From the NCBI GenBank assembly GCA_021773815.1, contig JAJFJS010000036.1, positions 1 through 64,000 of the forward strand: 64,000 nucleotides of DNA. The letters are read 5' to 3'. The notes beneath the pieces are model-generated. The model saw nothing but the letters and a program-made list of their open reading frames with translations, had not been told where the DNA came from and searched no databases. The translations under genes were made by a program, and so were the position numbers. Positions 5,007 through 60,645 of the stretch are shown in pieces. The stretch is from Gammaproteobacteria bacterium (GTDB lineage: Bacteria; Pseudomonadota; Gammaproteobacteria; Steroidobacterales; GCA-2729495). The first letter of the stretch is position 1; every line of letters starts with the position of its first letter.

Positions 5007-6509
5007 TTAGCGGAATACGTCCGCCATGAATTCGTCCAGCTTCCGGCGCGCCGTGGCCGTGTCGCCGTCAAATCGCACGCTGACCGCGACGACGCCCGTC
5101 GGGACCGGGCGGCTGAGCAACGCGTTGCGCAGTTCGCGGAGCTTGATGACCAGCCGGTTGCGGACCGGTCGGCCGTCGATGACATACCAGTGCCGGATGA
5201 GCCGTTTGACGTCGTCGGTGCCGATGATCTCCGTCTCGACATATGGCAGCGATCCGCTCGCGGGCAACGCGACGATGCCGGTCTGCTCACCCAGCAGCAG
5301 CCAGCGGTCGCGATCGAATAGCCGGTTGTCTTCATTGATCAACTCGGACTCACTCGACAGTGTCCGGTACCAGATCATATAGACCTCGATCGCTGACGTG
5401 GCGCCGGAATAGCTGCCGGAACGAATCACCGTGTCGCCGCGAAACCGCGGCGACCAGTCCTCGCGCCATGACCCCGGACCGGACCAGGTCCCGGTTGCGG
5501 CCGGCAGCGGCACGGACGTCGGGTTCGTCACGGCCGCGGCGCGCGTCGTCAGCACCGTCGCGGTCGCCGGCGCCAGCACGACGATGCCAATGATCGCGCT
5601 GGCCGCGATCAGCATCTTCCCGGCGGCGACCGGTCGCGCCACGGACTCGACATCGGCATTGCCGTCTTCTACAGCCGCATCTTCGGCACCGAGGTCGGAG
5701 TACCGGGCGGCGAGCGCGAGCAGGATCATGATCACAATGCCGAACACCACATAACCGAGCCAGACGTGATCGGCGATGAGTTCCATGCCGCTGTAATGCG
5801 CGACCATGACGACCGCATAGGCGCGCACCCAGTTGGCAACGATCGCCAGCGCGACGACACCGACCATGAACACCGTGCGTCGGGTCAAAGATCGAAAATT
5901 CAGATAAGCGATCAGCGCGCCGACAGCCACGGCCGCCATCAGCATGCGAATGCCGCTGCACGCCTCGATGACCCGGAAACTGCCGTTGGGTATTTCCAGA
6001 TACAGGCCGTCGCGATACACGGCCACACCCGACGCCCGCACCGCCAGTACGGTCATGTCGGCCGTGAAGTCCATCAGCGGGGGCACCAGGAAGTCGCCAA
6101 ACGGCACGAGGAAGAACAGGTAGCCGAGCGGGAACATGATCGTACGCGCAACGGGGGTCCCCAGCACCGCCCAGATCGACAGCGGGATCAGACCGACCGC
6201 GGCGAAGTTCTGCACGACCGCGATGTTGGCGGTCGCCCCTAGCGTCCAGACACCCGCCGCAAGCGTGACACCCGCCAATCCGGCATAGGAGACCGCCGGT
6301 TCGACCCCGCGCAAGACATCGCGCTGCCGCCAGATCAACCAGCCGCTGATCGGCGCGATCAACAGGCAGTGATTGAAATTGTCGATCTCGACCCAGAGCC
6401 GCAGCATTGCCGCAAAGCTGTCGGACAACGCGATGACAATTGCGATAAGAATGGCGCCGGCGACCAGCCACAGGCGCAACAAGACCGGTGATTGGGGCAT
6501 GCCCGTCAT
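5007..6509 (-). CDS. xrtA: exosortase A fused to an EpsI-type C-terminal domain
   Basis: Membrane transpeptidase that cleaves PEP-CTERM anchors of exported proteins in organisms making extracellular polysaccharide. The first roughly 285 residues form about eight membrane helices and carry the exosortase catalytic set: Cys184 in IEACSGIRML, Arg229 in ANWVRAYAVV and His248 in IADHVWLGYV. After a hydrophilic linker and one further helix, the C-terminal roughly 180 residues are a periplasmic EpsI-like domain (VYMIWYRTLSSESELINEDNR region). This XrtA-EpsI fusion is typical of exosortase A. The ATG at 6509 has GGAG about 6 nt upstream. Matching partners lie elsewhere in the window: a PEP-CTERM protein at 16545 and an amidotransferase and glycosyltransferase at the right end. 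Confidence 0.93.
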   Translation of the reverse strand: MTGMPQSPVLLRLWLVAGAILIAIVIALSDSFAAMLRLWVEIDNFNHCLLIAPISGWLIWRQRDVLRGVEPAVSYAGLAGVTLAAGVWTLGATANIAVVQNFAAVGLIPLSIWAVLGTPVARTIMFPLGYLFFLVPFGDFLVPPLMDFTADMTVLAVRASGVAVYRDGLYLEIPNGSFRVIEACSGIRMLMAAVAVGALIAYLNFRSLTRRTVFMVGVVALAIVANWVRAYAVVMVAHYSGMELIADHVWLGYVVFGIVIMILLALAARYSDLGAEDAAVEDGNADVESVARPVAAGKMLIAASAIIGIVVLAPATATVLTTRAAAVTNPTSVPLPAATGTWSGPGSWREDWSPRFRGDTVIRSGSYSGATSAIEVYMIWYRTLSSESELINEDNRLFDRDRWLLLGEQTGIVALPASGSLPYVETEIIGTDDVKRLIRHWYVIDGRPVRNRLVIKLRELRNALLSRPVPTGVVAVSVRFDGDTATARRKLDEFMADVFR

Positions 6510-6794
6510 GCAGACTCCGGGCGGATCGGTTGGGCGGCGTCTTTTTCGACCATCACAGGTGATCTGCTGTTCGAAGCGTACGGCACCGAGTCTAGCAGAT
6601 CCGCCACGAGCCCTAGTCGTTCAGCGTTGCGGGCGCGGCGCCCCGCGGCGATGCACGCGGCCCGGGCGCATCGTTGCCGGCGGCCGGCCCAAAGGCGCAA
6701 CCGATGGCCCAGGCAGCTGGCTCAAGTGGCAGCGGTTACTTTCACCAGCCGACACGTGGTTCGCACCATCGGCCGGCTGGTGAGCGTTGCAGAG

Positions 6795-6989
6795 CTAACT
6801 TCGCTCCGGCACCTCGCGGGCCTCGCGAGCTTTCAATTCCGTAATGATTTGCAGCTTTTGGACATGCGAGAATTGCGGCCAGCCGGCGATTTCGTCCTGC
6901 GTCCGATGGCAGCCAAGGCAATAGCCCGTCTGTGCGTCGATCACACATACATTAATGCAGGGCGAGAGTGCGCCGGTCGAATTGGCCAT
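6795..6989 (-). CDS. DUF1289 family small cysteine protein
   Basis: 64 aa. It shows the DUF1289 pattern [29 protein letters not shown]: four cysteines in a CxxxC...CxxC arrangement that suggests metal binding, then the conserved RTxDEIAxW stretch and a charged C-terminus. The function of the family is unknown. It is divergent from the SRPBCC gene with only 11 nt between start codons, so their promoters must overlap each other's 5' ends. I see no clear ribosome site. Confidence 0.85.
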
Positions 6990-7000
6990 GGATGTCCGGG

Positions 7001-7591
7001 ATGAACCGTTTGAATCTGCGAATATTATTGACCGTTGCGGCGTTCCTTGCCAGCACCCAGGTCACATTTGGCCTCGACCTGGTCCAGGTCACGGTCGACG
7101 TCGATGACGGGCAGTACCGCGTACTGGGCCGCAGTCGGATCGAGGCTTCCCCCGAATTCGTCTACGCGACGCTGATGGATTTCGACAATTTCCACAAACT
7201 CGCGCCCGGCATCGCCGCGACGCGCTTCCTGCCGCCCGAGCCCTCCGGCGAGCGGCGCGCCTATTCCCGCTTTGAGTCCTGTGTGCTGCTGTTCTGCAAG
7301 ACCGTCGAGAAGATCGAGGCCATCGATGGCCACCCGTTCGATTCGATCAGCGCCCGGGCCATCCCCGAGCTCAGTGACTTCGTGTTCAACGATTCAAACT
7401 GGCTGATCGAGGCGGTCGGCGATGCGACGCTACTAACTTTCACGGCCGAGTTTGAACCCGACTTCTGGATCCCGCCGCTGATCGGCCCGTGGGCCGTGCG
7501 GCGCAAACTGGTTCAGACGGCCGAGCTGATCGGCATGCGCATTGAATGGATGGCCGAACGCGGTCTGACGCTGGCCGACGTCCGCGAGTAA
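7001..7591 (+). CDS. exported SRPBCC/START-like fold protein
   Basis: About 196 aa with an N-terminal signal peptide ([20 protein letters not shown], cleavage near TFG-LDL). A polyketide cyclase/START-like lipid-binding domain follows: the segment [21 protein letters not shown] is the usual N-terminal strand-helix of the fold, and the C-terminal long helix is [18 protein letters not shown]. The ligand is unknown. In-frame starts lie at 6968, 6992 and 7001; 7001 gives the cleanest signal peptide. It is convergent with the lipoprotein gene that follows. Confidence 0.75.
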
Positions 7592-7606
7592 CGGCCGGCG
7601 CGCGCA

Positions 7607-9454
7607 TCAGTCATTCGCGGCCGCCGGTGCCGCGATCACGGGTTCGCGCAGCAGGCCGAAATCGATCGGCCGCGGTCGCTGGACAGGCCGCGGCGACCGG
7701 ATGAAGGCGACGACCTGGTCGGCCAGCATCGCCGCCACATCGGGCTCCCCGTTCGGCGCCGCCCAGATATCCCAGCTGCCGCGATATTGCCGCTGCACAG
7801 GCGCCGCCGGATCCGCTGGGCCCAGCGCGGGGTCATAGCCGAGATGGCCGAACTCGGACACATCGAAGGCCAGCGACGGATCCAGGTCGTCGCGCGGCTT
7901 GTCGGGCGGCGCCTGGCGCGGCGGCGGGTACGGTCGGCCGTCGGCACAGCCGCCCATCTCGAAACAACACGCGCCCGGGCCGTTCGCATCGGTGCACTGC
8001 CGGTCGACCCAGATACCCCAGTAGTCGGCAAACGGATGACCGACGCCGGGATAGGTCGCAAAGTCCGGCGTATCAATGCGCGCCCAGTTGCGGAAGCCGA
8101 CTTCTTTGCCGATCTGGTTCGGCAACTCAACGAGATTCAGCACCGAGTCGACCATGATCTGCGGGAACGCGATCACGATGTGCTCAGCGCCGCTGTCTTT
8201 GAGATATTCCAGCGCTTCCCAGTACCGGTAACCCCATTCATCGCCGGGCATCTGCTCGTCGGTCTGGTAGAGCCAGGCCTCGCCAAGGTTTTCGCCGCGC
8301 ATCGCGCGCGTACGTTCGACATGGCCCGCCGATGACCGTTCCTTGATGCCCATCCACGCACCAACGACACGCGCGGGCGCGAGCCCGGCATAGCGTTCGA
8401 GCAGCTGGGCTTTGATGTTCCGGTTCAGCACGAGCGTATCGTCGATCTTCGGATCGAACGCCTGGGCGTGCCGGCGCGTCGCGTGATTGACGAGGATGAC
8501 GCCGGTCTTGCCCGCGTCGACGGTCGGGGCAAAACGCGCGGCGATGCCGTCGACATGGAAGCCGGCCAGGCGAGGGTCGGCCGCGACCGGATTCGGTCTT
8601 CCGGCCAGCGGCACTACGCGGTCAGCGACCGGCGCGCCGAGCGTGCTCTTCCAGGCGGGCGGCTCAGCCGGATACGACGCGGTCATCAGGTCGGTCGGAT
8701 CGTTGACCCAATAGACCTCGACCGCGTCACCGGTGGCCGCGTTGTGCGCCGCAACCACCACCCGCGCGAGGTTGACCACATCGAAGCTCTTGAAGAAGCG
8801 GACGCCGGAAGTCGTCAGGTCCGCGAACACGATCTCGTCGACACCGGCACGCAGCAGCCGCTCAATCGTGCCGTCGGTGTCGTAGCGATCCGAATCACAA
8901 CCCGGCCACGTCGCCGCGGGACCCGTGCCGCCGTCGGCCTCGCTGCCGCAATAGCGCAGCAGTGCGCCGTTTGCGACGCCCGGGTAATACAGCGCGCGCG
9001 GATACACGTGGTGTGCCGGATCCGGCGACAGCCAGCTCGCGTAGTCGACGACGAACTCGACACCCAGCGCCTTCTCGCGCGCCGCGAGATTCTCGGCCAG
9101 CTGACGATAACGCAGGGCGGTCAGTGCATTGGCCGGATCGGCGCCGCCGAGCCGCGCATATTCGAACGCATACTTGCCCCGCTCTTTCGGCGCGTTTCCG
9201 AACCGCAGCAGTTGCGGCCAGACCTCCGGATTCCAGATGACCCGCCGGTAGACGGCGCTGTGTGGATCGTAGCCGAAGATCTGCATCGTCGCGTTCCACG
9301 ATGCCTGCGGCGAGTATTCGCCGAAGCCGCCGTGAAACAGGTAGACGACGCCGATTCGCGGCGGCGGGTTCACGAACGAACAGCTGCCGACCGCAACCAG
9401 CACGAACACGGAAACCATGACCGCCTGACCTATGCGGCCGATACTGCCGGTCAT
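7607..9454 (-). CDS. large lipoprotein with chelatase-like features, unknown function
   Basis: About 615 aa from the ATG at 9454, which gives a signal peptide ending in the lipobox-like VAVGSC followed by SFVNPPP. The open frame extends 53 codons further upstream, but that part is Arg-rich and unlike an export signal. Segments such as GVVYLFHGGFGEY, GVILVNHATRRHAQAF and a Leu-rich helix before GAEHIVIAFPQIM recall the repeated fold of ferrochelatase or CbiX-type chelatases (LVNHG... and GA..IVV.P). This is pattern resemblance only. The C-terminal region is rich in Pro, Asp and Arg. I do not recognise a named family. It is divergent from the PAP2 gene. Confidence 0.6.
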   Translation of the reverse strand: MTGSIGRIGQAVMVSVFVLVAVGSCSFVNPPPRIGVVYLFHGGFGEYSPQASWNATMQIFGYDPHSAVYRRVIWNPEVWPQLLRFGNAPKERGKYAFEYARLGGADPANALTALRYRQLAENLAAREKALGVEFVVDYASWLSPDPAHHVYPRALYYPGVANGALLRYCGSEADGGTGPAATWPGCDSDRYDTDGTIERLLRAGVDEIVFADLTTSGVRFFKSFDVVNLARVVVAAHNAATGDAVEVYWVNDPTDLMTASYPAEPPAWKSTLGAPVADRVVPLAGRPNPVAADPRLAGFHVDGIAARFAPTVDAGKTGVILVNHATRRHAQAFDPKIDDTLVLNRNIKAQLLERYAGLAPARVVGAWMGIKERSSAGHVERTRAMRGENLGEAWLYQTDEQMPGDEWGYRYWEALEYLKDSGAEHIVIAFPQIMVDSVLNLVELPNQIGKEVGFRNWARIDTPDFATYPGVGHPFADYWGIWVDRQCTDANGPGACCFEMGGCADGRPYPPPRQAPPDKPRDDLDPSLAFDVSEFGHLGYDPALGPADPAAPVQRQYRGSWDIWAAPNGEPDVAAMLADQVVAFIRSPRPVQRPRPIDFGLLREPVIAAPAAAND

Positions 9455-9654
9455 CGCGTCTCGCCTGGAAGGCTCGACGGCACCGCGAGTGACATTGACC
9501 CGGATTGCACCACGATGACGACTCTTTTGGTTTTCATACACTCGGCTTTTCACCGACCTGCGTTTGCAAAAGTCAGCGGAAACGGTTGTTCTGCGCAGAC
9601 ACGCGGAGGACAATCGAACACCGGGCTCGAGACTGGCGCGAAGGATAACCGAGA

Positions 9655-10212
9655 ATCAACCACCGAAAAACAGCCACGACCTGTCGCGTCCTGCTGATCA
9701 GCGCTTTGCTCACGACGCTGCCGGTAACGGCGACGGCCGGCGACGGCGCACGCGACCGGCAGGCCGACGTGCTCGCCATCGGCCTGCCGATCGCATCTTT
9801 CGCGCTGGCGGGCTGGAAGCACGACGGGGACGGCATGCGCGCCGCCGCCAAATCCATCGGCCTGACCGCCGTCACGACGGTCGGCCTCAATGCGCTGATC
9901 CACAAGAACACGCCGAACGACGATGCCGACGACGCCTTCCCGTCCGGTCACAGCGCGATTGCTTTCAGCTCGGCGACGTTCCTGCAGCGCCGTTACGGCT
10001 GGCGCGCGGGACTGCCCGCGTTTGCGGCTGCCGGCACCGTCGGCTGGCTGCGCGTCCGGACGGACGATCACGACTGGACCGATGTGCTCGGCGGCGCCGC
10101 GCTGGGCATCGCAGCGTCGATGCTGTTCACACAGCGCTGGTCCGAGACCGTCGCGTTCACGCCGTGGATCGCGCCCGATGGCGGCGGCCTTGCGGTGCAC
10201 GCCCGCTGGTAG
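9655..10212 (+). CDS. PAP2-family phosphatase with non-standard or damaged start codon
   Basis: Type 2 phosphatidic acid phosphatase-like protein, exported. Catalytic motifs are visible: FPSGHSAIAFSSATF (PSGH motif) and RVRTDDHDWTDVLGGAALG (the R...HxxxDV motif). The first motif (KxxxxxxRP) is not clear. The nearest ordinary start in frame is TTG at 9706, in the middle of a signal peptide. The full signal peptide (HRKTATTCRVLLISALLTTL) would begin at ATC 9655, which lies 9 nt after AAGGA. The frame is closed by TAA at 9646. I therefore give 9655 with the caveat that the codon is ATC. The function could be lipid or undecaprenyl phosphate dephosphorylation. Confidence 0.7.
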   Translation: MNHRKTATTCRVLLISALLTTLPVTATAGDGARDRQADVLAIGLPIASFALAGWKHDGDGMRAAAKSIGLTAVTTVGLNALIHKNTPNDDADDAFPSGHSAIAFSSATFLQRRYGWRAGLPAFAAAGTVGWLRVRTDDHDWTDVLGGAALGIAASMLFTQRWSETVAFTPWIAPDGGGLAVHARW

Positions 10213-10591
10213 CGAGCCTGAACGGCGGCATGGATGACACGAGGATCCGATCGCTGATGATCGCAACCAACGATGGCGCCGACGCACGACGTTCACCCGC
10301 ACGGGCCAACCGCTTGCTGACCGAAACCGGTGTGGCGCGATTTGGTACGGATAATCGCCTCGCGATACACCGGGATCCGCACACCCGGGTCACACGCGCC
10401 CCGGGGCATACCCGTGCCGCTGCGAACAGTCTCCGGCCGCGGCGGTACACGGCCGCTGCTCCATCCTGCACCGGCCATTGCGGTTGCCCGGCGCCAGTTG
10501 CCCGGAGGCCGTTGCGAAGGGCCGAAAACCGGTCATGCCATCGCACGCGTACAATCCATGACATGACGATTCACCGGCGAGACGGCAACGT
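10213..10591. other. non-coding gap
   Basis: 380 nt of GC-rich sequence between the PAP2 gene and the ABC exporter operon. Overlapping open frames on both strands are compositional shadows with no recognisable product. It should hold the promoter of the ABC operon, but I could not identify -35/-10 boxes. Confidence 0.5.
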
Positions 10592-18373: not shown

Positions 18374-18796
18374 GTGCGATTCACGGCATTTACCGACTAC
18401 GCTCTGCGGGTCATGATTTACCTCGCGCTCGATCCCGGCGATCGAGCGACGATCAAGGATATTGCCGACGACTACGGCATTTCCAAGAATCACCTGATGA
18501 AGGTCGTGAACGTACTGGCAAAAGGTGGATATGTAAGCGCGAACCGGGGGCCGGGTGGCGGACTGGAGCTGGCGCGTCCGGCCGATGAAATAACGGTTGG
18601 AGAGATCGTCAGGCTCACAGAGGACACCCTCCAGCTCGTCGAGTGTTTCGGGGCCGACAATCAGTGCTCGATTACGCCGGCCTGCACGCTGAAAGGAATA
18701 TTTAACGAATCGTTGCAGGCAATGTTCGGGGTGCTCGATGCCTACAGTGTTCAGGATCTCGTCAAACGCAGGACGGAGTTGAAGAAGCTGCTTTAG
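18374..18796 (+). CDS. nsrR: Rrf2-family NO-sensing repressor NsrR
   Basis: 140 aa. It has an N-terminal winged helix (MRFTAFTDYALRVMIYLAL; recognition region KNHLMKVVNVLAKGGYV and wing RGPGGGLELAR), then the cluster-binding loop with Cys91, Cys98 and Cys104 (VECF...NQCSITPACTL). The spacing C-x6-C-x5-C is close to known NsrR proteins, which bind a [Fe-S] cluster that NO destroys. It starts at GTG. It heads a same-strand run of nor genes (27 nt to the next), so it is the likely NO switch for norCB and possibly for the nod region. Confidence 0.9.
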   Translation: MRFTAFTDYALRVMIYLALDPGDRATIKDIADDYGISKNHLMKVVNVLAKGGYVSANRGPGGGLELARPADEITVGEIVRLTEDTLQLVECFGADNQCSITPACTLKGIFNESLQAMFGVLDAYSVQDLVKRRTELKKLL

Positions 18797-18823: not shown

Positions 18824-19126
18824 ATGTTCGAACCCGTTGAAATACAGAACATTTTAGTGGCAACGATGGCCGGCGCACTGGTCGTCATGTTCGGTGCGCT
18901 GTACGCACTTGGCTTCGCCATGGGCAAGTTAAACAAGCAGCCGGGGATGCTGCGCGCCGCCTACGGCGCCTATGCCGCACTGAGCGTCAGCGTGTTCGTG
19001 CTGGCATATACGCTGAACCTGAACGGCATCTGGTGGGGCGTAACCCTGACCATGCTCATCGGCTACCTGCTGGCACCACAGGCGATCTGGAAGCTGTCAG
19101 TCAAAACCCACGAATTTTCCGACTAG
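18824..19126 (+). CDS. small three-helix membrane protein of the nor operon
   Basis: 100 aa with three hydrophobic stretches (VATMAGALVVMFGALYALGF; ALSVSVFVLAYTLNL; GVTLTMLIGYLLAPQ) and a charged C-terminus. I recognise no domain. It sits between nsrR and norC on the same strand (27 and 50 nt gaps), so it is probably co-transcribed. It may help assembly or stability of the NorCB complex, which here lacks the usual NorD and NorQ partners. That role is an inference from context only. Confidence 0.75.
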   Translation: MFEPVEIQNILVATMAGALVVMFGALYALGFAMGKLNKQPGMLRAAYGAYAALSVSVFVLAYTLNLNGIWWGVTLTMLIGYLLAPQAIWKLSVKTHEFSD

Positions 19127-19176: not shown

Positions 19177-19779
19177 ATGATTACTACCGCATGGTGGGCA
19201 AGCGAGGACTTCTGGCGCAAGGCAACCATCTGGATAACCGCTTTCATGGTCGTGGTCCTGATTGTCCTGACGTACGACTCGCTGTCCCAGATATCGGCTG
19301 GAACCGAGCGCGTGCCCGCGTACAGCGCTATCAATAACCGGATTTATTATCGACAGGACAAGAGCCGCAATATGCCGGTGCCCGTGATCGGTGATCCGGC
19401 GCCGCTGTTCGGCAAGATCCTGTCCGAGACGGAAGCGGAGGCTCTCGTAGAGAAGGGCAAAATCACGACGCAGGCCAAGAACTGCATGGGCTGTCACACG
19501 ATTCTCGGCAACGGCGCCTACTTTGCCCCGGACCTGACCAAGGCCTGGCTGGACCCAGCCTGGGGCAGCGAGGGGACGCGCGAGCAGCTGATGATGAGAT
19601 TCCTGCTCGACCCGCCCGCAAACTCCCGCGGCTACGGCAGTAAACGCCGGATGCCGAATCTTGGCATCACCGAGGAAGAGGCACGCGGCATCATCGCTTT
19701 CCTGAAGTGGATGTCCACCATCGATACGAACGGGTTTCCCCGTAACTTCACACCCATTGCACAGGAGGGCGATCGATGA
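19177..19779 (+). CDS. norC: nitric oxide reductase cytochrome c subunit
   Basis: 200 aa. An N-terminal membrane anchor (ATIWITAFMVVVLIVLTYDS) is followed by a periplasmic cytochrome c domain with the haem site CMGCH (Cys103, Cys106, His107), the NorC-typical ILGNGAYFAPDLTKAW and the axial Met159 in RRMPNLGIT. It accepts electrons from periplasmic carriers and passes them to NorB. It is about 50 residues longer than textbook NorC; the extra length lies between anchor and haem site. Its stop overlaps the norB start (ATGA), and AGGAG precedes its own start. Confidence 0.94.
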   Translation: MITTAWWASEDFWRKATIWITAFMVVVLIVLTYDSLSQISAGTERVPAYSAINNRIYYRQDKSRNMPVPVIGDPAPLFGKILSETEAEALVEKGKITTQAKNCMGCHTILGNGAYFAPDLTKAWLDPAWGSEGTREQLMMRFLLDPPANSRGYGSKRRMPNLGITEEEARGIIAFLKWMSTIDTNGFPRNFTPIAQEGDR

Positions 19780-21230
19780 AACTCGGCGTACTTGACTCCT
19801 CAAACCTGACCGGCGGCCAACAGCTCGCCGTCAAGTACTACACGGTGGCAGTCGTGCTGTTCGGCGCACAGATCCTGTTCGGATTGTTCGCAGGTCTGCA
19901 GTTCCTGGCTCCGGAATTTGGCTACAACGTGCTCGATTTCAGCGTCAACCGCATGGTGCATGTCAACGCCATGATCGTCTGGATGCTGTACGGCTTTATC
20001 GGCGCGATCTACTGGCTCGTCGAGGAAGAGGCCGGAACAGAGCTCGTGGGCCTCAAGCTCGGCAACCTCGCCTTCTGGGTGCTCACGGCCGCGGTAACGG
20101 TCGTCGTCCTGGTCTACCTGTTCGTGCAGACCGGTCCTGGTGAGATCGAATCAATCTGGTTCATCAATGAGGGTCGCGAGTACATCGAGGCGCCCCGATG
20201 GGCCGATATCGGCATCGTCGTCTGTCTGCTGGTGTTCTTCTACAACGTCGCCGCGACGTTTATGAAGGGCAAGTGGAGCGGCATATCCGGCGTTCTCGTC
20301 TTTGACCTCGTTGCAGTCGCGGGCCTGTACCTCGCCGGCATGTTCTACACGACGAACGTCTCGGTCGAGCAGTACTGGTGGTGGTGGGTCATTCACCTGT
20401 GGGTCGAAGCGACCTGGGAAGTGCTGATCGGCTGCATCATGGCGTGGGGCCTGATCAAGACCCTGGGCGCCAGCCGCAAGATCGTCACGACCTGGTTGTA
20501 TATCGAGGTCGCACTGATGCTCGGTGCCGGCATACTCGGGCTGGGCCATCACTACTTCTGGATCGGCACACCCGAGTATTGGTTCACAGTCGGCGGATTC
20601 TTCTCCGCGCTCGAACCGGTACCACTCGTGGCAATGGTCGTACACGCCGTCTACGATTCGGGCGTGCACCGGTTCAAGAATACCAACCACCCGGCGCTGG
20701 CCTGGCTGATCGCACATGCGTTCGGCAATTTCTTCGGGGCGGGTGTTTTTGGCTTTATGCATACCCTCCCGCAGGTCAACCTGTACACGCACGGCACGCA
20801 GTGGAGCTCTTCACATGGCCACTTTGCGTTCTTCGGCGCCTATGCCACGATCAACATTGCGATGTTCTATATCGCCCTGCAGAAGTGGCGCGGTAATGTC
20901 TACATGTCTGCGGGTCTGGCTGACAATGGCTGGAAATGGAAGTGGGCGCTCGGCCTGCTGAATATGGGCGTCGTCGGCATGACCATGGCACTGCTGGTCA
21001 GCGGCTACGAGCAGGCGTTCGTCGAGCGTGCACTGGGCGGGTCCACCTGGGCCGCATATTTCGCTGCCCAGAACAGCGTCTGGTTTATACAGGGCATGCT
21101 CTGGCGAGAAATATTCGGCTTGATGACTGCCGCCGGGTTCGGCCTTCTGGTCTGGGACCTGGTCACGATCGGACGAACCGAAACCCGTTCAATGCTGATA
21201 CCTGCGGAAGCCGCGAAGGCGGCGGCTTAA
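19776..21230 (+). CDS. norB: nitric oxide reductase catalytic subunit (cNor)
   Basis: 484 aa haem-copper oxidase-type membrane protein reducing 2 NO to N2O. All canonical residues are present: low-spin haem ligands His62 and His349 (SSSHGHFAFFG), haem b3 His347, the FeB ligands His207 (WVIHLWVEATWE), His258 and His259 (GLGHHYFWIG), Glu211, and the active-site Glu280 (FFSALEPVPL). It is therefore a genuine NO reductase and serves as internal control for the altered homologue at 24832. No norD or norQ follows; a small cytochrome c does. Confidence 0.96.
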   Translation: MKLGVLDSSNLTGGQQLAVKYYTVAVVLFGAQILFGLFAGLQFLAPEFGYNVLDFSVNRMVHVNAMIVWMLYGFIGAIYWLVEEEAGTELVGLKLGNLAFWVLTAAVTVVVLVYLFVQTGPGEIESIWFINEGREYIEAPRWADIGIVVCLLVFFYNVAATFMKGKWSGISGVLVFDLVAVAGLYLAGMFYTTNVSVEQYWWWWVIHLWVEATWEVLIGCIMAWGLIKTLGASRKIVTTWLYIEVALMLGAGILGLGHHYFWIGTPEYWFTVGGFFSALEPVPLVAMVVHAVYDSGVHRFKNTNHPALAWLIAHAFGNFFGAGVFGFMHTLPQVNLYTHGTQWSSSHGHFAFFGAYATINIAMFYIALQKWRGNVYMSAGLADNGWKWKWALGLLNMGVVGMTMALLVSGYEQAFVERALGGSTWAAYFAAQNSVWFIQGMLWREIFGLMTAAGFGLLVWDLVTIGRTETRSMLIPAEAAKAAA

Positions 21231-21279: not shown

Positions 21280-21594
21280 ATGCGTATGAAATTTACCCTG
21301 ATCGCGGCAGCGTTCGCCCTGGCCAACCTGTCGGTCACCGCGTCCGCTGACGCGGACGCCACGGCCAAGGCAAAGGCGGTTTGTGCCGGTTGCCACGGAC
21401 CCAACGGCATCAGTACGAATCCGATGTGGCCGAATCTGGCCGGACAGAAGGATCAGTACCTCGTCAAGGCGATGAAGGAGTACCGGGACGGCGCCAGGCT
21501 GGACCCGAACATGGCGGCCCTCGCACAGGGCCTGACCGACGATGACATCGCCAATCTCGCCGCCTTTTACGCGGCACTGCCGGCCGGAGGCTAA
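21280..21594 (+). CDS. small class I cytochrome c
   Basis: 104 aa. A signal peptide ([17 protein letters not shown]) is followed by one haem site CAGCH and a distal Met in [15 protein letters not shown]. The fold resembles c4/c553 single-domain carriers. It lies 49 nt after norB and before a strong terminator, so it is the last gene of the nor operon and a plausible periplasmic electron donor to NorC. Confidence 0.9.
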
Positions 21595-22554: not shown

Positions 22555-23049
22555 TCAGTCGTTCGTGAAGGCCTTCCGGGAACGCTCAATGCCATGCACG
22601 AGCACGAGCACGATCAGGAGCAGCGCCAGACCGCCATGGAGCTGAAAAGCCAGCTGCTCCATCGCCTTGTCGTCGGCAGCCAGCGCCGAAAAGTTGATGA
22701 GCCCGAACGCGCGAACCTCATAATCGATGACCGACGCCAGCGCGACGCCGAGCAACGGCTGGATCAATAACAGCGGATAGAAAATCCACTGCAGCAACAT
22801 GGACGGCCGTTTCCACCATCTCGGCGGCGTGTACAGGTTGTTCCGCCGGCGCCACCACCAGCGCAGCAGCATCAGCCCGAATATGGTGACACCAATACCC
22901 GAGTGAATCATGAGCAGGATTACCCTGTGCTCAAGTTCGAACCCCCCCAGTCTCCAGCCGGACAGCAGGTTGAAGGCAATAATGAAGCCCGCTATCCAAT
23001 GCAGCACTTTGGCAACGGTGTAGTAAAACTTTTTCTTTGACCCGGCCAT
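22555..23049 (-). CDS. cytochrome b561-type membrane protein
   Basis: 164 aa with four membrane helices and histidines placed for two b haems: His17 (KVLHWIAGFI), His49 (LMIHSGIGV), His138 (LHGGLAL) and His151 (VLVHGIERSRKAF). This is the small di-haem cytochrome b561/CybB fold, which moves electrons between quinol and periplasmic acceptors. It follows the hemerythrin gene on the same strand at 200 nt. The ribosome site is weak. Confidence 0.85.
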   Translation of the reverse strand: MAGSKKKFYYTVAKVLHWIAGFIIAFNLLSGWRLGGFELEHRVILLMIHSGIGVTIFGLMLLRWWWRRRNNLYTPPRWWKRPSMLLQWIFYPLLLIQPLLGVALASVIDYEVRAFGLINFSALAADDKAMEQLAFQLHGGLALLLIVLVLVHGIERSRKAFTND

Positions 23050-23251: not shown

Positions 23252-23695
23252 TCAGGATGCCGTCTCCGACATCTGATCTATCGCCTGTTGCCTTTCCTGC
23301 TCGTCGGTGACGTTATCAATCGCCGGATACAGGATATGTTCTTCCTTTTGATTGTGGGAGCCAAGAACCTCCAGCAACGCATTGGCGGGCTGACCAATGG
23401 CCGTCGGATTCTCCGCCCGCAATGTCTGATCAATCTGTTCGAGGATTTCCCGGATCTGGCGGTGTTCCATGCGCATGACCGCCGTCGGGCCGGCATCGCG
23501 CATGCCTGTTGCGCGTTCGAAGATCGGAAACAGCAGGTCCTCCTCCCAGACTATATGCCGCTCGAGTCCGGACCGGAAATCGCCAAACAGCGCCTGCGCC
23601 CGCTCCCCGTCCCCGGCGCCCAGCGCCAGGAGTTCGCTAAAAATATTGTCCAGCCTGTCATGATCGACGCTCATGAACTCCAGTATCGTAGTCAT
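23252..23695 (-). CDS. hemerythrin-like (HHE) domain protein
   Basis: 147 aa, all helical. The di-iron ligand pattern is present: SVDHDRLDNIF, LERHIVWEEDLLFP, MRMEHRQIREIL and GSHNQKEEHILYPAID. It lacks the C-terminal DUF438/RIC scaffold domain of YtfE but resembles NO- and O2-related HHE proteins. Its place between nor genes and the nod-like gene suggests a role in NO or O2 binding, or in repairing damaged iron centres. AAGGA lies upstream of the start. Confidence 0.88.
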   Translation of the reverse strand: MTTILEFMSVDHDRLDNIFSELLALGAGDGERAQALFGDFRSGLERHIVWEEDLLFPIFERATGMRDAGPTAVMRMEHRQIREILEQIDQTLRAENPTAIGQPANALLEVLGSHNQKEEHILYPAIDNVTDEQERQQAIDQMSETAS

Positions 23696-23760: not shown

Positions 23761-24408
23761 TTAATCACCGGAAGCTACCTCTGACCCCATATCGGGCGCC
23801 GCCAGTTGTTCGAGGTCCAGCGCGACGATTTTTCCCAGACCAATGCGAATGCTTTCCCGCGCCGCACCTTCCATCGCCACCCGGACCCGGTTGCCACCGT
23901 GGATACCGCCCTCGAAAACTCCGCCCGTATAGGTCGAGAGAATCTTCTCGTTGAACAGAACTTCTTTATTAGCCGTACGGTAAAGGGTCCACATCGCCTG
24001 CATATCGACCGTCATCCGAAGGCCGAAAGACGGCGTATCCACCCTGATGATCCGGACGCTCAAAAAATATGGCGTATCACCGCTGACTTCGGTGCTCGGA
24101 AAAATACCGTCCGCCCGAATCATGGGCAGGATAACGGCCGCCTCGTGGGTACTGGAAACACCGGAAAAAATTCGATCGGCAACAATCGCCTCGGTCAGGG
24201 CCTGTTCGAAATAATCAGACGTGATGCCGGCGGAAGCGCCGCTGACACCCAGGCCCACCATGCCGGGCCCGTCATTTTCCCCGACAGCTGCCCCCTGAGA
24301 CACTGCAGCCTCATCGGCCATCGATACCGAGCAAAACATCGATGCGCCAGCCGCGATGGCGATCAGAACCAGGCATCGCGGCATCAATCGACTGTAAAAA
24401 CCCTTCAT
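23761..24408 (-). CDS. secreted protein of unknown function
   Basis: About 215 aa from the ATG at 24408, which has GGAGA about 6 nt upstream; the frame runs 25 codons further but without a start context. The signal peptide is LVLIAIAAGASMFCSVSMA. The mature protein alternates helices and strands, with a long two-strand stretch (YFLSVRIIRVDTPSFGLRMT, MQAMWTLYRTANKEVLF) ending in a helix rich in Ala and Arg. The shape recalls LpoB/DUF4410-like periplasmic proteins, but I cannot assign a family. It is 65 nt upstream of the hemerythrin gene on the same strand. Confidence 0.65.
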   Translation of the reverse strand: MKGFYSRLMPRCLVLIAIAAGASMFCSVSMADEAAVSQGAAVGENDGPGMVGLGVSGASAGITSDYFEQALTEAIVADRIFSGVSSTHEAAVILPMIRADGIFPSTEVSGDTPYFLSVRIIRVDTPSFGLRMTVDMQAMWTLYRTANKEVLFNEKILSTYTGGVFEGGIHGGNRVRVAMEGAARESIRIGLGKIVALDLEQLAAPDMGSEVASGD

Positions 24409-24729
24409 TGCTGATCTCCTGCAAACATGCTGTCGGGCGTCTCCGCAATCAGCCCGCCGGCATGTCGACTGCCCGCCGGCCATCCGTGTTGCAAAGATTG
24501 CATCACCGCTTTATGTCGGTCTGCGATACGCCCCGTGGCGTTCGCAGAGCGGGCGCATGGTCAGCGCCCGGCGGCCACAGTGCATGAATAGTTCTCGCTA
24601 CGTTTGCGCCGCTCCCTGACCGCAGGCGCCGAGAATCCGGCCCGCGGCCCCGCGGCCCGCGGCGTCTTGCAACCCGAATCAGTACCGTAGTACCTGATCG
24701 AGAGACGATGCAGCACCATTTTGTCGGCT
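24409..24729. other. non-coding gap
   Basis: About 320 nt between the secreted-protein gene and the nod terminator. It should contain the promoter for the secreted protein - hemerythrin - cytochrome b series. No motif could be assigned. Confidence 0.45.
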
Positions 24730-24831: not shown

Positions 24832-27201
24832 TTAGCCCCCCAGTGCGGGATCTTTCTGCTCGGACCAGTCGTTCTCGTAGACTGTCCATTCGCCTTCCTC
24901 AACGTCCTCTTCCTTGAGGCGAAGCTTCGTGCCGCGCGACAGGACGAACCACATCAGGGGCAACAGGCCACCCCAGATGAAGACGGCGCCGCCGATGGTG
25001 CGGCAGTAGGTCAGGAATGAGAACACCGGACCCGTGACGATCTCAGCCGAACGTGCATACCAGGTGCCATGCGCGTAGGCCATCCAGGTCTGGTACAGAC
25101 CGACCGGGAACAGATCGAGGAACATCATCAGGACAAGACCGATATTCAGGGACCAGAACGACGTCCTGACCAGCTTCGGGTTCCACGCAGACTTGTGGAA
25201 CAGGTGCTGGAGACAGAACAGCATTCCGCCCAGTGCGATATTGCCCTTGACGCCGAACATGGCTGCATGCGCGTGGTTACCCGTCAGGTAGGTCGCATGC
25301 TCGTAGTAGTTGACGATCGGCAGGTTAACCACCGAGCCAAATACGCCAGCGCCGAAGATGTTCCAGAAGTTCACACCGAGGATGAACAGCCAGACGCCTT
25401 CCATGACGATCGTCTGTTTGCCCTCGAGCAGGTTCTTACCGGCGGTAAGACCTTCCTGGCGCATCTGCCATGCATCGAGCGTCAGCAGCAACAGCGGCAA
25501 CACCTGCAGGGTCGAGAAGACACTGCCGAGTGCGATGATGCCCGTCGGCTTCGCAATCCAGTAGAAGTTATGCGAAATACCGATCGTCGCCGTGATCAGG
25601 AAGAGCATGACCGCGAGGAAGATCACGCGCTCTGCCATCATCCGGGTGATCAGGCCCATCTGCACGAGCATGTAGCCGACGATAACGGTTGTGAACACTT
25701 CGAAGGTCACCTCGACCCACATGTGGACAACCATCCAGCGCCAGTAATCGGAGATCGCGAAGTTCATGTCGGGCTGCACGAGCAGACCGAAGAACAGGAA
25801 TCCCACCATGATGCCACTGCCGTACAGGAGCCACGACGGAACCGACCAGACGTTCCTCTTGGTCAGCCACGGCTTGACGGCACGGTAAATGATGAAGATC
25901 CAGAGTGCGAACGCCGCCAGCAGCGTGAACTGGAAGAAGCGACCGAGTTCCATGAACTCCCAGCCCTGGCTACCGAACCAGTAAGACATCTTGTCGCTCA
26001 ACATGCCCGACTGGCCCATGTAGATACCGACAATTGCGCCTACGCCCGTAACGAGACTCAGGACAAACAGGAGATCGATCAACATCTTCTGGCCCGGCGG
26101 AACCTTGGAGATTCTCGGCAGGAAGAAGATCGTGTAACCGACCCAGCACATGAAGAACCAGAAGATCTGCAGCAGCGCATGATAGCTGCGAGCCACCTGG
26201 AACGGGAGTATCTCATTCAGCGAAACGCCGCCGGGTCGGACAAAGTCCGTCGCGGCAACGACGCCACCGATGATCTGCACGCCGAACACGATGATCGCCA
26301 GGGCGAAGAACTTGTACGTGGCCCGCTGTGTCGGACGAACATACTCGTTCTCGAGGTCATACGTGGTCAGCGACTGACCGGCATGGCCACTTTCCGAGTC
26401 GAACACATCAACCGGCTGCTCTTTCATCTCGCCGTATGCGTACAGGACCACCATGACCCCGACGAACAGTGCGAAGATCGAGAACACGCTCCAGAAGAAT
26501 GTCGCGCCGGTCGGGGTGTTACCCGCGTCCTTGTCGCCAGGCCAGTTGTGCGTGTAGCTGTAGGTCTCGCCCGGGCGATTCGCGCCGGAAACCCAGCCGC
26601 CCCAGAAGAAGAAAGAACTCAGCGCCTCGATGTCGGCGCCTTCGGCGATGTGTCCCATCGTGCCGAACGCTTCCACGTATTCCGGATCGTGGAACATGCG
26701 CCGGTAATGCTCGGTCACATCCCTGAAGGCTGCGATCTGGGCATCGTTGAGGACGATAACGCCGGCTTCTTCGTCGTAAGCGTTGTTGTGGATTTCTCTA
26801 ATAACGCGCGCCGCGATGGCGTCCTCGTCATATTCAGAGAGCGCCCCGGCGCGATCGAGCAGCTCTTGCTTATAGAAAGCACGCATGCCAACAACGGTCC
26901 GGTGCAGCGCATCGGCCGTAAAGTCCGGGCCGCGTTCCGCACCATCGCCCCAGAACGAGCCGTAGCTCATCAAGCCTCTGATGTGGAACAGCTCCTGTCC
27001 CCGCTTGATCTGGGCCTGGGTAATTACGGTCTGCCCGGTGGACGACACATAATCGACCAGCGGCGGAGCGCCGGTATAGGTCGCACCACCGAGGTAAATT
27101 AGCCCGGCGATACAGATACCGGCGACAATCAGAAAGTGCGTCAACCAGTTTTTCTTATTGACTAGCCACATCGCTAGATTCTGTTGGCCTGAGTTACTCA
27201 T
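24832..27201 (-). CDS. nod: putative nitric oxide dismutase (qNor-like, altered active site)
   Basis: 789-aa membrane protein of the quinol NO reductase family: N-terminal helix, roughly 200-residue periplasmic domain without a CxxCH haem site, then about 13 helices of the haem-copper oxidase fold. Kept residues: His341 (RSYHALLQIFW), His493 and Glu497 (VVHMWVEVTFE), His544, His643 and His645 (GNHAHAAMFG). Changed residues: the second His of the His-His pair is Asn545 (GISHNFYWIA, versus GLGHHYFWIG in the nearby NorB), and the active-site Glu is Gln566 (FSTLQVLPL, versus FSALEPVPL). These two changes are those I recall for Nod of Methylomirabilis and strain HdN1, proposed to form N2 and O2 from NO. 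Start: AAGGAG six nt before ATG. It is monocistronic, with its own terminator. Activity is inferred, not shown. Confidence 0.85.
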   Translation of the reverse strand: MSNSGQQNLAMWLVNKKNWLTHFLIVAGICIAGLIYLGGATYTGAPPLVDYVSSTGQTVITQAQIKRGQELFHIRGLMSYGSFWGDGAERGPDFTADALHRTVVGMRAFYKQELLDRAGALSEYDEDAIAARVIREIHNNAYDEEAGVIVLNDAQIAAFRDVTEHYRRMFHDPEYVEAFGTMGHIAEGADIEALSSFFFWGGWVSGANRPGETYSYTHNWPGDKDAGNTPTGATFFWSVFSIFALFVGVMVVLYAYGEMKEQPVDVFDSESGHAGQSLTTYDLENEYVRPTQRATYKFFALAIIVFGVQIIGGVVAATDFVRPGGVSLNEILPFQVARSYHALLQIFWFFMCWVGYTIFFLPRISKVPPGQKMLIDLLFVLSLVTGVGAIVGIYMGQSGMLSDKMSYWFGSQGWEFMELGRFFQFTLLAAFALWIFIIYRAVKPWLTKRNVWSVPSWLLYGSGIMVGFLFFGLLVQPDMNFAISDYWRWMVVHMWVEVTFEVFTTVIVGYMLVQMGLITRMMAERVIFLAVMLFLITATIGISHNFYWIAKPTGIIALGSVFSTLQVLPLLLLTLDAWQMRQEGLTAGKNLLEGKQTIVMEGVWLFILGVNFWNIFGAGVFGSVVNLPIVNYYEHATYLTGNHAHAAMFGVKGNIALGGMLFCLQHLFHKSAWNPKLVRTSFWSLNIGLVLMMFLDLFPVGLYQTWMAYAHGTWYARSAEIVTGPVFSFLTYCRTIGGAVFIWGGLLPLMWFVLSRGTKLRLKEEDVEEGEWTVYENDWSEQKDPALGG

Positions 27202-27316: not shown

Positions 27317-27853
27317 CTAGTCCAGGTATCCGAGTCGAAACCCTTCCGCAACCACTGCCGCGCGCGTGTTGACGTTGAGCTTGCTGCGCATACGCTCAAC
27401 ATGCGTGCGGATCGTAGATTCTCCAACACCCAGGCGCTCGGCCACGGATGACGTCGTCTCACCGTCGGCCAGCAACAGCAGGATCTCCTGCTCCCTGGGG
27501 CTCAGGGCCTGCCACTCCTTCGGTGACTCGCTGCCCATCGGGCTCAGCATGCAGACCACCACTCCGTTCGCCGGTATGCAACTCAGCTGATGGCGTTGAC
27601 CATGCAGCTTGAACTGCGTGTGATGCGAACAATCCATGCCGGCCGCCAGCAGCCGCAAGACACAACCCTCACTGCACGGCAACGACTCGGACTCGTCCAG
27701 CTCGCCCATGACGTCCCAGCAATATTTTCCCGTTCCGGAGCCCAGCAATCGCCGCGCCGGCTTGTTCTGGGCGATCACGCTGCCGTCACCGCCAGCGACG
27801 ATCACGGGGCGGGTATCACCAAACGTATTGCGGTATAAACCGGGATTCAGCAT
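27317..27853 (-). CDS. Cys-rich PAS-like sensor with LuxR-type HTH, upstream of nod
   Basis: 178 aa. The C-terminal 65 residues are a LuxR/GerE helix-turn-helix (LSPREQEILLLLADGETTSS, VGESTIRTHVERMRSKLNVN). The N-terminal half looks PAS-like (RPVIVAGGDGSVIAQNKPARRLLG) and carries six Cys: 45, 60, 64, 75, 92 and 101, with C60-x3-C64 and C75-SHH. No receiver domain is present, so it is not a classical response regulator. The Cys/His set could hold an iron-sulfur cluster or a redox switch. It is on the nod strand, 115 nt upstream, and is the obvious candidate regulator of nod. Confidence 0.82.
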   Translation of the reverse strand: MLNPGLYRNTFGDTRPVIVAGGDGSVIAQNKPARRLLGSGTGKYCWDVMGELDESESLPCSEGCVLRLLAAGMDCSHHTQFKLHGQRHQLSCIPANGVVVCMLSPMGSESPKEWQALSPREQEILLLLADGETTSSVAERLGVGESTIRTHVERMRSKLNVNTRAAVVAEGFRLGYLD

Positions 27854-28653: not shown

Positions 28654-29541
28654 ATGAAATTATCAATCGTTGCATGGATCAAGTCGCTGGGGAAAAAATC
28701 GCTTGCCGATGGTCCCTTCGAGTCTCATCACAAGAATGGTCAACTACAGTCCAGGGGGACCTACAAAGACGCTCTGCATGACGGCCCCTACGAGTCTTAC
28801 TATGACAATGGCCAACTCGAATCACGGGGAGCCTTCTCGACAGGAATAGAAGAAGGGCCGTGGGAAAAGTATTTCGATGACGGCCAGATGCAGTTCAAGG
28901 GCGACTACCGCAACGGTAAACTGGACGGCCTGCAGGAATGGTTCCACAAGAATGGTCAGTTGCGTGAAAAGCAGGTCTATAAGAATGGCAAGAATGAAGG
29001 CCCCTGGGAGTTCTATCACGAAAACGGCCAGCTGAAATCAACCGGACACCACACGGACGGCAGCCGGGAAGGCCGGTTCGAAATCTGGTATCCGAATGGC
29101 CAGTTGAGATCCCGGGGCAACCACAAGAGTGACAAACGCGACGGTCCGTATGTATCACACCATGAGAACGGGCAGCTGGAATCCGAGGGGGCATACAGAG
29201 AAGGCAAGAAGGATGGCCTGTGGCGCAGTTTCCATCCGAACGGCCAGCTGCAATCCAGCGGCGCATTCACGGACGGCAAGAAAGACGGCGATTGGGAAAC
29301 TTTCCACGACAACGGACAGTTACGGACCCGGGAACGCTATATAGCCAATAAACAGGATGGTCCCTTCGAGGAGTACGCAGCGGACGGACGGCTTACGGTC
29401 AAAGGCGGCTACAAAGACGGCAAGAAGGACGGCCTGTATGAATCGTACGACGAGAACGGCCAACTGAAATCCAAAGGAACATTCAGGAACGGGGCACTGG
29501 ACGGCCCCTATGAATTGTACGAAGACGGCGTTCTTCAATAG
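28654..29541 (+). CDS. MORN_2-repeat protein, about 12 repeats
   Basis: 295 aa made almost wholly of 23-24-residue repeats of the type DGPxExYxxNGQLxSRGxYKxGKK (MORN variant 2, the YwqK-type repeat). NGQL-like cores recur twelve times, the last degenerate (LYEDGVLQ). There is no signal peptide; the short N-terminus MKLSIVAWIKSLGKK is basic and amphipathic. Such proteins form a beta-solenoid-like sheet. In some firmicutes they are called antitoxins of the YwqK type, but no toxin gene is adjacent. A second gene of the same kind follows after 56 nt. Confidence 0.85.
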   Translation: MKLSIVAWIKSLGKKSLADGPFESHHKNGQLQSRGTYKDALHDGPYESYYDNGQLESRGAFSTGIEEGPWEKYFDDGQMQFKGDYRNGKLDGLQEWFHKNGQLREKQVYKNGKNEGPWEFYHENGQLKSTGHHTDGSREGRFEIWYPNGQLRSRGNHKSDKRDGPYVSHHENGQLESEGAYREGKKDGLWRSFHPNGQLQSSGAFTDGKKDGDWETFHDNGQLRTRERYIANKQDGPFEEYAADGRLTVKGGYKDGKKDGLYESYDENGQLKSKGTFRNGALDGPYELYEDGVLQ

Positions 29542-29597: not shown

Positions 29598-30209
29598 ATG
29601 AAAAAGATATCCAATTTTTTGTTCAGACTTGTCAGCTTGCTCCCGGACGGCCCATGGATGCGGGAACGACCGGCCGATCAGTTGAAGTCCAGGGGCAGCC
29701 TCAAGAACGGAAAAGAAGATGGTCCCTGGGAAATGTACTACGCGAGCGGCCAGTTGGAATTCAGGGGAGCGTACCGGGAAGGCAGGCGGCACGGCCCGTG
29801 GGAGATGTTCTACGAGAGTGGCAGCCTGAAGATTCGCGGTACGTCCAGGAACGGCAGACCGGACGGCCTGTTCGAACGATATTATGAAAACGGCCAGTTG
29901 TTGGAAAGGTCAAACTGCAAAAACGGCGAGCAGGACGGTCCCTTCGAAACATACCATTCGAACGGCCAATTAAAGGAGAAGGGAACCTACTCCGGCGGTT
30001 TCAGGGACGGGCTGCTCGAGGTCTACTACGAAAACGGCCAGTTGCAGAGAACAGGACGCTACGAGGGCGGCGGCATGGAAGGCCCGTGGCTGTTTTATTA
30101 CCAGAATGGCCAGTTGGGAAAGAGAGAAAACTATAAAGACGGCTTACTGGATGGCCTCTGGGAATACTTCGATGAGACCGGCAAGCTGAAGCAACGGAAA
30201 ACCTACTGA
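29598..30209 (+). CDS. MORN_2-repeat protein, about 8 repeats (paralogue)
   Basis: 203 aa with the same architecture as the preceding gene: a short N-terminus (MKKISNFLFRLVSLLPDGPW) and then about eight MORN_2 units (for example DGPWEMYYASGQLEFRGAYR). The first and last units are degenerate. The two genes are a tandem duplicate pair that has diverged in repeat number. The function is unknown. Confidence 0.83.
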   Translation: MKKISNFLFRLVSLLPDGPWMRERPADQLKSRGSLKNGKEDGPWEMYYASGQLEFRGAYREGRRHGPWEMFYESGSLKIRGTSRNGRPDGLFERYYENGQLLERSNCKNGEQDGPFETYHSNGQLKEKGTYSGGFRDGLLEVYYENGQLQRTGRYEGGGMEGPWLFYYQNGQLGKRENYKDGLLDGLWEYFDETGKLKQRKTY

Positions 30210-30333: not shown

Positions 30334-30657
30334 CTAGCGTTCCAGGTACTTCAGCTTGTCCGGCACTCCGTCCCATTCCTCGGCATCGGGAGGCGGGCTG
30401 GATTTTTCCGTGATATTCGGCCATATCGCCGCAAGTTCGTCATTGAGCTTGACGAAGTGGCGCTGATTGGCAGGAAGAGAACGCTGCTCGTAGATCGCAT
30501 CCACGGGGCATTCCGCCGGACACAGCGCGCAATCGATGCACTCATCCGCATTGATTACCAGGAAGTTCGGCCCTTCATAAAACGCATCCACCGGACATAC
30601 ATCCGCGCAGTACGTGTGCTTGCAGTTGATACAGTTTTCGGTAACGACATGAGGCAT
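30334..30657 (-). CDS. fdxA: 7Fe ferredoxin FdxA
   Basis: 107 aa [3Fe-4S][4Fe-4S] ferredoxin. It starts [20 protein letters not shown] with Cys spacing C-x2-C(KH)-x4-C-x3-CP, and a second set [17 protein letters not shown]. The C-terminal tail ([19 protein letters not shown]) is typical of the Azotobacter-type FdxA. The frame extends 31 codons upstream, but the family always begins at MPHVV. It is a soluble low-potential electron carrier; its partner enzyme is not in the window. Confidence 0.95.
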
Positions 30658-31137
30658 TGATGAACTCGCATTGACCCGTTCGGGCTCACGGCGGCTGATT
30701 CGGCTCTCCGTTCCGATGGTCGGGCCGGCCGGTTGCCGGACGCTGCCCAATCAAAAAGAACGCGGCGCTAGTTTACGATGAATCGGGCGAGTCACCAAAG
30801 TGGCCCGCGCGCATCACCGGAAGACGACCGCTACGGATAATACGGATGGACTTGCGCCATCCGCTCAAGCGGCGATCAATTGACAGTCACCTGCATCATC
30901 GGCGGCCGCTCGCGGGTTCGGAAACGGGCATTTCCCCGCGTGATCGAAGCCCCGCAGCCCGGACCGGCACCCTTATCCCTGATGCGGGACGAATCGCCCG
31001 TCAATGAGAACCAGCAACCGCTGCACGTCCGCAGGTCGGCCAGAAATTTTTCAATGTTTCCAGCCGCAAGTCCCCGGGCCCAAGCCGGTATAATACGCAG
31101 CTACCAATGCGTTAGAGGCGCCGAAGAAGGAGTAAAC
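30658..31137. other. intergenic, promoter region of the monooxygenase-like gene
   Basis: 480 nt between divergent fdxA and the ABM-type gene. A TATAAT hexamer lies at 31089-31094, 43 nt before the ATG, without a clear -35 box. Nothing else is recognised. Confidence 0.5.
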
Positions 31138-46701: not shown

Positions 46702-49422
<2,721 letters not shown>

Positions 49423-54928: not shown

Positions 54929-54977
54929 TCCGCGCCTCGAACTGAAACCGCTTTTGTTTCTTTCGGGGAGATGGGTC

Positions 54978-56309: not shown

Positions 56310-57529
56310 ATAAGGGAATGATCATCGTCACGATCCTGATCGTCGGCGCAGCGGGTTTCTTTCTCGGCGCTCGCCAGACACCGGAGATGCCGGCGGCCGG
56401 CACCGACCGTGCGGCGGAACGCGAGATCCTGTATTGGGTGGCGCCGATGGACCCGAACTATCGCCGCGACGAGCCCGGAAAATCACCGATGGGCATGGAT
56501 CTCATCCCCGTCTATGCGAATGCCGGCGAAGCCGATGCTTCGGTCGTGCGCATCTCTCCGGCAGTCGAGAACAATCTCGGCGTCCGGACCGCCACCGTGA
56601 AACTCGGCGCGTTACCGAGGGTCATCGATACCGTCGGCTACGTGCAGTACGACGAGAACGAGCTGCACCATATTCACACGCGCGTCGAAGGCTGGGTCGA
56701 AACCCTGTCGACCAAGAGTTCCGGTGAACGGGTGAGCCCCGGGCAGACGTTGTTCGAGGTCTATTCGCCGACGCTGGTCACAGCGCAGCAGGAATACCTG
56801 GCGGCGCTGGCATCGGGCAGCGCAGCGCTGCAGACGGCGTCCCGCGATCGGCTGCTGGCGTTCGGACTGACCGCCGCACAAATCGAGCAACTGACACGCA
56901 CGAAGCGGGCGCGGCAACGGATAGAGACCTATGCCGATATCGAGGGCATCGTCGCCAGTCTCGACATCCGCGAAGGCATGTTCGTGACGCCCAGCACCAC
57001 GATCATGAGCCTGGCCACACTCAAGTCGGTCTGGGTACTCGCCGAGGTCTTCGAGCGCCACAGCGCGTGGGTCGAGGTCGGCCAGCCCGTCGAAGTCACG
57101 CTCGACTATATCCCGGGACATATCTGGATCGGCGCCGTCGATTACATCTACCCCGAACTGGATCCGAAGACCCGCACGCTGAAAGTCCGGATCAAATTCG
57201 ACAACCCTGAAGAAGTTCTGCTGCCCAACATGTTCGCCCGCGTCACGATCGCCGGCACGCTGACCGAACCGGTGCCGTATATCCCACGCGAGGCGTTGAT
57301 CAGGGGCGGTCGCCAGGACCGTGTCGTCATCGCGTTGGGTGACGGCCGCTTCCGGTCGACCCCGGTGGCCACCGGCATGGAATCCGGCACCTGGATCGAG
57401 ATCCTGGAAGGACTGGAACCGGGCCAGCAGATTGTGACCTCGGCACAGTTTCTGCTCGATTCGGAATCGAGCCTCGATGCCGGTTTCGCGCGCATGGAAA
57501 ACACCGCAACCGGTGGGGTCCTGCCATGA
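56306..57529 (+). CDS. cusB: RND periplasmic adaptor (CusB type)
   Basis: 407 aa membrane-fusion protein. N-terminal anchor, then a heavy-metal binding segment [20 protein letters not shown] followed by GMDLIPVY, which is the HMBD of CusB-like adaptors. Lipoyl halves [20 protein letters not shown] and [20 protein letters not shown] flank a helical hairpin, followed by a barrel domain ([19 protein letters not shown]). It passes Cu/Ag to the pump. Its stop overlaps the cusA start by 4 nt. Confidence 0.93.
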
Positions 57530-60500: not shown

Positions 60501-60645
60501 GATCATGGTCGGCGGCGGCACCGGCGCCGAAGTCATGCGCCGGGTCGCCGCGCCGATGGTCGGCGGCATCATCGGTACGACGGTGCTGGTCCTGCTGCTG
60601 ATTCCGGCGATCTTCCTGCTGTGGCGCCAGCGCGGCGTCGACTGA
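57526..60645 (+). CDS. cusA: heavy-metal RND pump, CusA/CzcA family
   Basis: 1039 aa, 12 membrane helices and two large periplasmic loops. Landmarks: [57 protein letters not shown] (proton relay Asp), [40 protein letters not shown] (the Met/Ile-rich segment of CusA-type monovalent pumps) and [20 protein letters not shown]. The MLATGIKTP site favours Cu(I)/Ag(I) over divalent metals. Confidence 0.94.

Follow-up and report, generated by a model that had tools for sequence, protein, structure and literature searches.

A putative nitric oxide dismutase gene beside MORN-repeat genes and an NsrR-NorCB block in a gammaproteobacterial genome

The window analysed here, a stretch of 64,000 nucleotides of contig JAJFJS010000036.1, harbours an intact open reading frame of 789 amino acids with an ATG start on the minus strand (24832..27201), annotated as nod, a putative NO dismutase (Nod). 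An earlier sequence-only reading had placed such a gene at these coordinates without naming a strand; the gene is real and belongs to the minus strand, and the plus-strand frame across the same positions is interrupted by stops. The sequence AAGGAG, a good ribosome-binding sequence, lies 5′ of the ATG, and the GC3 of nod (0.79) is the same as that of norB and matches that of TtcA. The product possesses the Pfam domains NorB_cytochrome_c-like and COX1, and its residues 22-781 align with phmmer to the Geobacillus quinol-dependent NO reductase (qNor) 3AYF (E 3e-133). Similar to 3AYF in domain layout and haem histidines, it has the qNor-like architecture of a hydrophilic N-terminal domain lacking haem c joined to a haem-copper core (12-14 transmembrane segments in proteins of this kind). 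CxxCH is absent from its translation and from every nod ORF in the loci checked. The AlphaFold model (mean pLDDT 81) shows the qNor fold when compared with 3AYF (VIA Z 41.2, rmsd 2.5, 728 residues). The fold, the lack of CxxCH and the long N-terminal domain had been claimed from the letters and are upheld by the translation, Pfam, phmmer and this model, although a fold common to the model and qNor is no proof of function. A cNor NorB is a short catalytic subunit accompanied by a c-type NorC, which does not describe a protein of 789 amino acids with its own N-terminal domain and no CxxCH. NCBIfam returned no model for the protein, and a search of phage records gave zero matches. All matches in plasmid records were below 60% identity, the best among the matches listed being qNor-like (32-35%).

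Directly upstream of nod, at 115 bp and on the same strand, lies the gene of a LuxR-type regulator whose N-terminal half is PAS-like (27317..27853, minus; Pfam GerE). Five cysteines of this protein (C45, C60, C64, C92, C101) are invariant in an alignment of six homologues located near nod genes. Its AlphaFold model, of moderate confidence (mean pLDDT 70.5), matches PAS/LOV and LuxR-HTH proteins, and the protein is a possible candidate for an NO or O2 sensor acting through a metal or Fe-S centre. Divergent from nod are the genes of MORN_2-repeat protein 1 (28654..29541, plus) and MORN_2-repeat protein 2 (29598..30209, plus), both with PF07661 and both conserved next to nod. A 4Fe-4S ferredoxin with DUF3470 follows (30334..30750, minus), and is usually found beyond the MORN pair.

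On the other side of nod, the window encodes a protein without Pfam match and with a predicted N-terminal signal-like segment (23761..24483, minus), whose gene follows nod within the subclade to which the window belongs; homologues with 41-53% identity are present near nod in eight other loci. A hemerythrin HHE protein (23252..23695, minus; PF01814) and a cytochrome b561-like protein (22555..23049, minus; PF01292) are encoded beside it, the latter near nod in seven loci of our set, the window included. Genes for a cytochrome c-dependent NO reductase (cNor) lie on the plus strand. They comprise an NsrR-like Rrf2 regulator (18374..18796; NCBIfam PRK11014, E 4e-39, under the curated cut-off), a small membrane protein encoded between nsrR and norC (18824..19126), which is kept in relatives, NorC, the cNor cytochrome c subunit (19177..19779; Cytochrom_C, CMGCH motif), NorB with canonical HH and E (19776..21230), and a small cytochrome c (21280..21594; PF00034). 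NorB does read GLGHHYFWIG and FSALEPVPL, the motifs with which the product of nod had been contrasted. An inverted-repeat search upstream of nod, NsrR and norC detected nothing assignable as an NsrR site. Elsewhere in the window, an ORF resembling catalase-peroxidase (KatG) with a possible N-terminal export signal (46702-48948, minus), and ORFs resembling a heavy-metal RND efflux set of the CusCBA type (54954-60645, plus) were observed.

This arrangement bears on the suspicion that nod came from another organism and was joined to the window contig by assembly or binning, since the window genome is in 149 contigs. A genome of the same genus, G010, has on one contig the same order, with a nod fragment, the 23761..24483-type protein and, further along, cytochrome c, NorB, NorC, the small protein and NsrR. 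G031, from another genus of the same family, possesses on one contig nod, the MORN pair, the ferredoxin, NirS, a second cd1 protein and NsrR-NorCB; its NirS is 79% identical to that of the window genome. The small protein between nsrR and norC has 62% identity in both. Because the contigs of these independent genomes hold equivalent blocks, and the GC3 of nod matches that of norB and TtcA, the nod-NsrR-NorCB setting was inherited rather than created by a chimeric join, and we rule out the artefact as exceedingly improbable. The setting is less special than the sequence-only reading had proposed when it called a gammaproteobacterial nod beside NsrR-NorCB notable. Strain HdN1 is a gammaproteobacterium whose nod has been known since 2012 (PMC3413370), Nod-type genes near NsrR and/or NorCB also occur in relatives and in Bacteroidota, and regulators of the LuxR type and NsrR have already been reported close to nod (PMC13386854). 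Among the Bacteroidota, Algoriphagus and its kin have their Nod-type genes next to an Rrf2/NsrR-like gene, and NorCB is nearby in some of them.

In the alignment with the Geobacillus qNor, Asn545 of the window Nod stands at His560, a ligand of FeB, and Gln566 at the catalytic Glu581. His493, Glu497 and His544 are retained, and the other haem-copper signature histidines (H341, H643, H645) are invariant throughout all aligned sequences. The two substitutions and the retained residues had been read from the letters, and the alignment confirmed each of them. The quinol-site residues named by Ettwig et al. (PMC3413370), His328 and Asp746 of the Geobacillus protein, are Thr318 and Gly738 in the window Nod; Geobacillus E332 is R322, at a column adjoining a gapped stretch of the alignment. 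The window Nod does not possess the full set of three FeB histidines, catalytic Glu, and quinol His and Asp by which a qNor is recognised. With Nods and true qNors aligned together, the comparison that the earlier reading had suggested, the window Nod shows the Nod-type state at residues 545 and 566 and at the quinol site, with residues 493, 497 and 544 kept.

The tree and the alignment covered 83 sequences of Nod type and 17 true qNors. A search of named genomes had supplied 80 relatives, to which sequences from 99 related genomes and from eight genomes already known to carry Nod were added; the true qNors came from plasmids, from relatives and from two PDB entries. Asn and Gln occupy both columns in 83/83 Nod-type proteins, and His and Glu in 17/17 true qNors. 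The search pattern behind the set of 80 included HNFYWIAK and biased the hits to Asn; because one search pattern spans the Asn, this set alone cannot show that the residue is universal. An unbiased, profile-free search of the whole genomes of 99 relatives returned full-length matches of 68-87% identity (Nod-type) or 33-35% identity (qNor-type) and none between. Fourteen alignment columns split Nod from qNor, for instance D86 for His, M490 for Trp, M494 for Leu and T564 for Ala. The invariance of N545 and Q566 in 83 sequences from many phyla indicates that these residues were selected for and are not the product of decay.

The maximum-likelihood tree, built with a quick method and with long branches flagged among the outgroup, places the Nod-type and qNor groups on opposite sides of one branch with 100% SH-aLRT and one label change. 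The window Nod groups with Nods of related gammaproteobacteria, and HdN1 belongs to the sister group. The window protein therefore lies outside the true qNor clade, where a placement would have spoken against the earlier assignment to the putative NO dismutases of Methylomirabilis and HdN1, an assignment that residues and tree sustain. On the changes of His to Asn and Glu to Gln, the loss of quinol residues, the qNor fold and the separate clade shared with HdN1 and Methylomirabilis, the predicted protein is a member of the Nod family, not a qNor.

Quinol-site states vary within the Nod-type proteins. A clade containing Algoriphagus, Cecembia, Indibacter and kin (L060-L071) keeps the quinol His328 and has Gly for Asp746, unlike other Nods. 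A Myxococcales MAG (L072, SKPJ01000380.1, 4431-6704) encodes a protein with Asn and Gln in the active site, yet with the quinol-site His and Asp both retained; it has a basal position in the Nod clade and may represent an intermediate between qNor and Nod. One Flavobacteriales MAG (L074) possesses tandem, distantly related Nod-type genes (5321-7690 and 7926-10328), whose products are 43% and 51% identical to the window Nod.

Among known systems, the Nod of HdN1 (FP929140, L035) is 67% identical to the window Nod, and possesses the Asn and Gln and the loss of quinol residues. MORN genes adjoin nod in both organisms. The HdN1 locus differs in that no NsrR-NorCB was found within 8 kb, and the PAS-LuxR gene directly upstream of nod is an addition of the window. 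The Nod of Candidatus Methylomirabilis (L041; 62% identity) has identical active-site changes. Unlike the window, Candidatus Methylomirabilis has two tandem nod copies and no MORN genes were found near them. Nods of marine Alphaproteobacteria (L010, L011, L013; 71-72% identity) are alike in active-site and quinol-site states; an NsrR-like gene is directly divergent from their nod, and no MORN genes were found nearby.

In the gammaproteobacterial Nod clade, which takes in HdN1 and a Halieaceae genome, MORN-type genes adjoin nod in 18/18 members, whereas none were seen near Nod-type loci outside this clade within the flanks retrieved. Eighteen of 40 genomes of the window's family have nod, 18 have close homologues of MORN protein 2, and 17 have both (Fisher p 3.5e-9, uncorrected for relatedness). 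There is one mismatch each way: nod opens its contig in G010, as the MORN genes do in G045 (70% complete). Since each of them sits at a contig edge of an incomplete genome, both may reflect missing sequence. The nod-MORN gene association is thus established, and we found no published mention of it in the literature covered, outside which lie Elbon 2024 and Ruff 2024. This association is the new element here, and it supplies a concrete candidate partner of Nod. It is conceivable, though we hold it only tentatively, that the MORN_2 proteins are dedicated partners of the gammaproteobacterial Nod, for instance by helping to assemble or cluster it or by coupling it to enzymes that use O2, and that the nod-MORN block, which often includes the ferredoxin and in one relative nirS as well, is inherited as a cassette for oxygenic denitrification.

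The window genome (3.87 Mb, 98.95% complete) belongs to a genus that includes the genome of Chromatiales bacterium NP153 (nod locus L003), and its content was assessed by profile searches only. It possesses narG above the profile cut-off, and a cd1 NirS (L149 8251-10584, G000:C36) with two CxxCH motifs before the d1 domain. This NirS has one cytochrome c domain more than usual. One COX1 (haem-copper oxidase) is present besides Nod and NorB, and no canonical qNor was found alongside these two proteins. The profile searches did not detect nirK, and two profiles for nosZ likewise gave no hit; with the genome split into 149 contigs, these absences are strong but not final evidence. The nearly complete genome brings together nitrate and nitrite reductases, Nod, cNor and a haem-copper oxidase, with NosZ not found, a gene content that fits oxygenic denitrification and is no proof of it. 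In 25 genomes of the family, cd1 genes were present in 8/9 with nod vs 4/16 without (Fisher p 0.004, relatedness uncorrected). Because the nod-bearing family members G012 and G020 also carry nosZ, Nod does not simply replace N2O reduction, and a general role as replacement of nosZ is ruled out.

We estimate at about two in three the probability that the gene encodes an NO dismutase, which would convert NO to N2 and O2 without an external electron donor in this setting of NarG, NirS and NorCB. Nod would be a membrane protein of qNor origin in which haem b, haem b3 and a non-haem metal site of two His and one Glu persist, with Asn in place of the third metal-binding His, Gln in place of the catalytic Glu, and the quinol-binding residues gone. 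Without the quinol site, it presumably could not readily draw electrons from the quinol pool, and the binuclear site would instead convert two NO into N2 and O2 by rearrangement. Nitrite would be produced by NarG and NO by NirS, and the NO would be split between Nod (N2 and O2) and NorCB (N2O). The haem-copper oxidase or oxygenases would use the O2 from Nod; the nod locus has no specific link to any O2-dependent pathway. Expression is probably coupled to NO through NsrR and the PAS-LuxR protein.

Nod has still been neither isolated nor biochemically characterised, and evidence is cited both ways (PMC13386854, June 2026). According to Fuchsman et al., similar qnorB-like genes track N2O maxima and may remain NO reductases (PMC5723336). 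A divergent NO reductase that detoxifies NO to N2O, supplied with electrons through a changed quinol site or by a different donor, would agree with this N2O-profile argument, with the retained qNor fold and haem histidines, with the NO-stress gene setting (NsrR, hemerythrin, cNor), and with the quinol His, or His and Asp, kept in the Algoriphagus clade and in L072. Nevertheless, the window Nod has Thr and Gly at the quinol His and Asp, and Gln at the catalytic Glu implicated in NO reduction. The loss of these ligands and of the Glu speaks against a normal quinol-driven reductase, though not against every other donor. Considering also the invariance of N545 and Q566, and that the window genome already has a canonical cNor, we regard such a reductase as unlikely.

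Alternatively, since the site of electron entry and the catalytic Glu are both lost and regulators lie nearby, the gene might encode a non-catalytic NO-binding or NO-sensing protein of qNor descent. However, the invariance of the buried ligands of haem and metal suggests turnover, and Nods rank among the most abundant proteins of Methylomirabilis (PMC3413370). A purely binding or sensing role is accordingly quite improbable.

The window Nod is a sound further member of a known but biochemically unproven enzyme family. Nod-type genes are also present in named strains, namely Magnetovibrio blakemorei MV-1, Terasakiella brassicae, Roseovarius amoyensis and Algoriphagus species, so that the question is testable without the uncultured source organism. 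If NO dismutation is true, Nod would be among very few light-independent sources of O2, and would remove NO without release of N2O.
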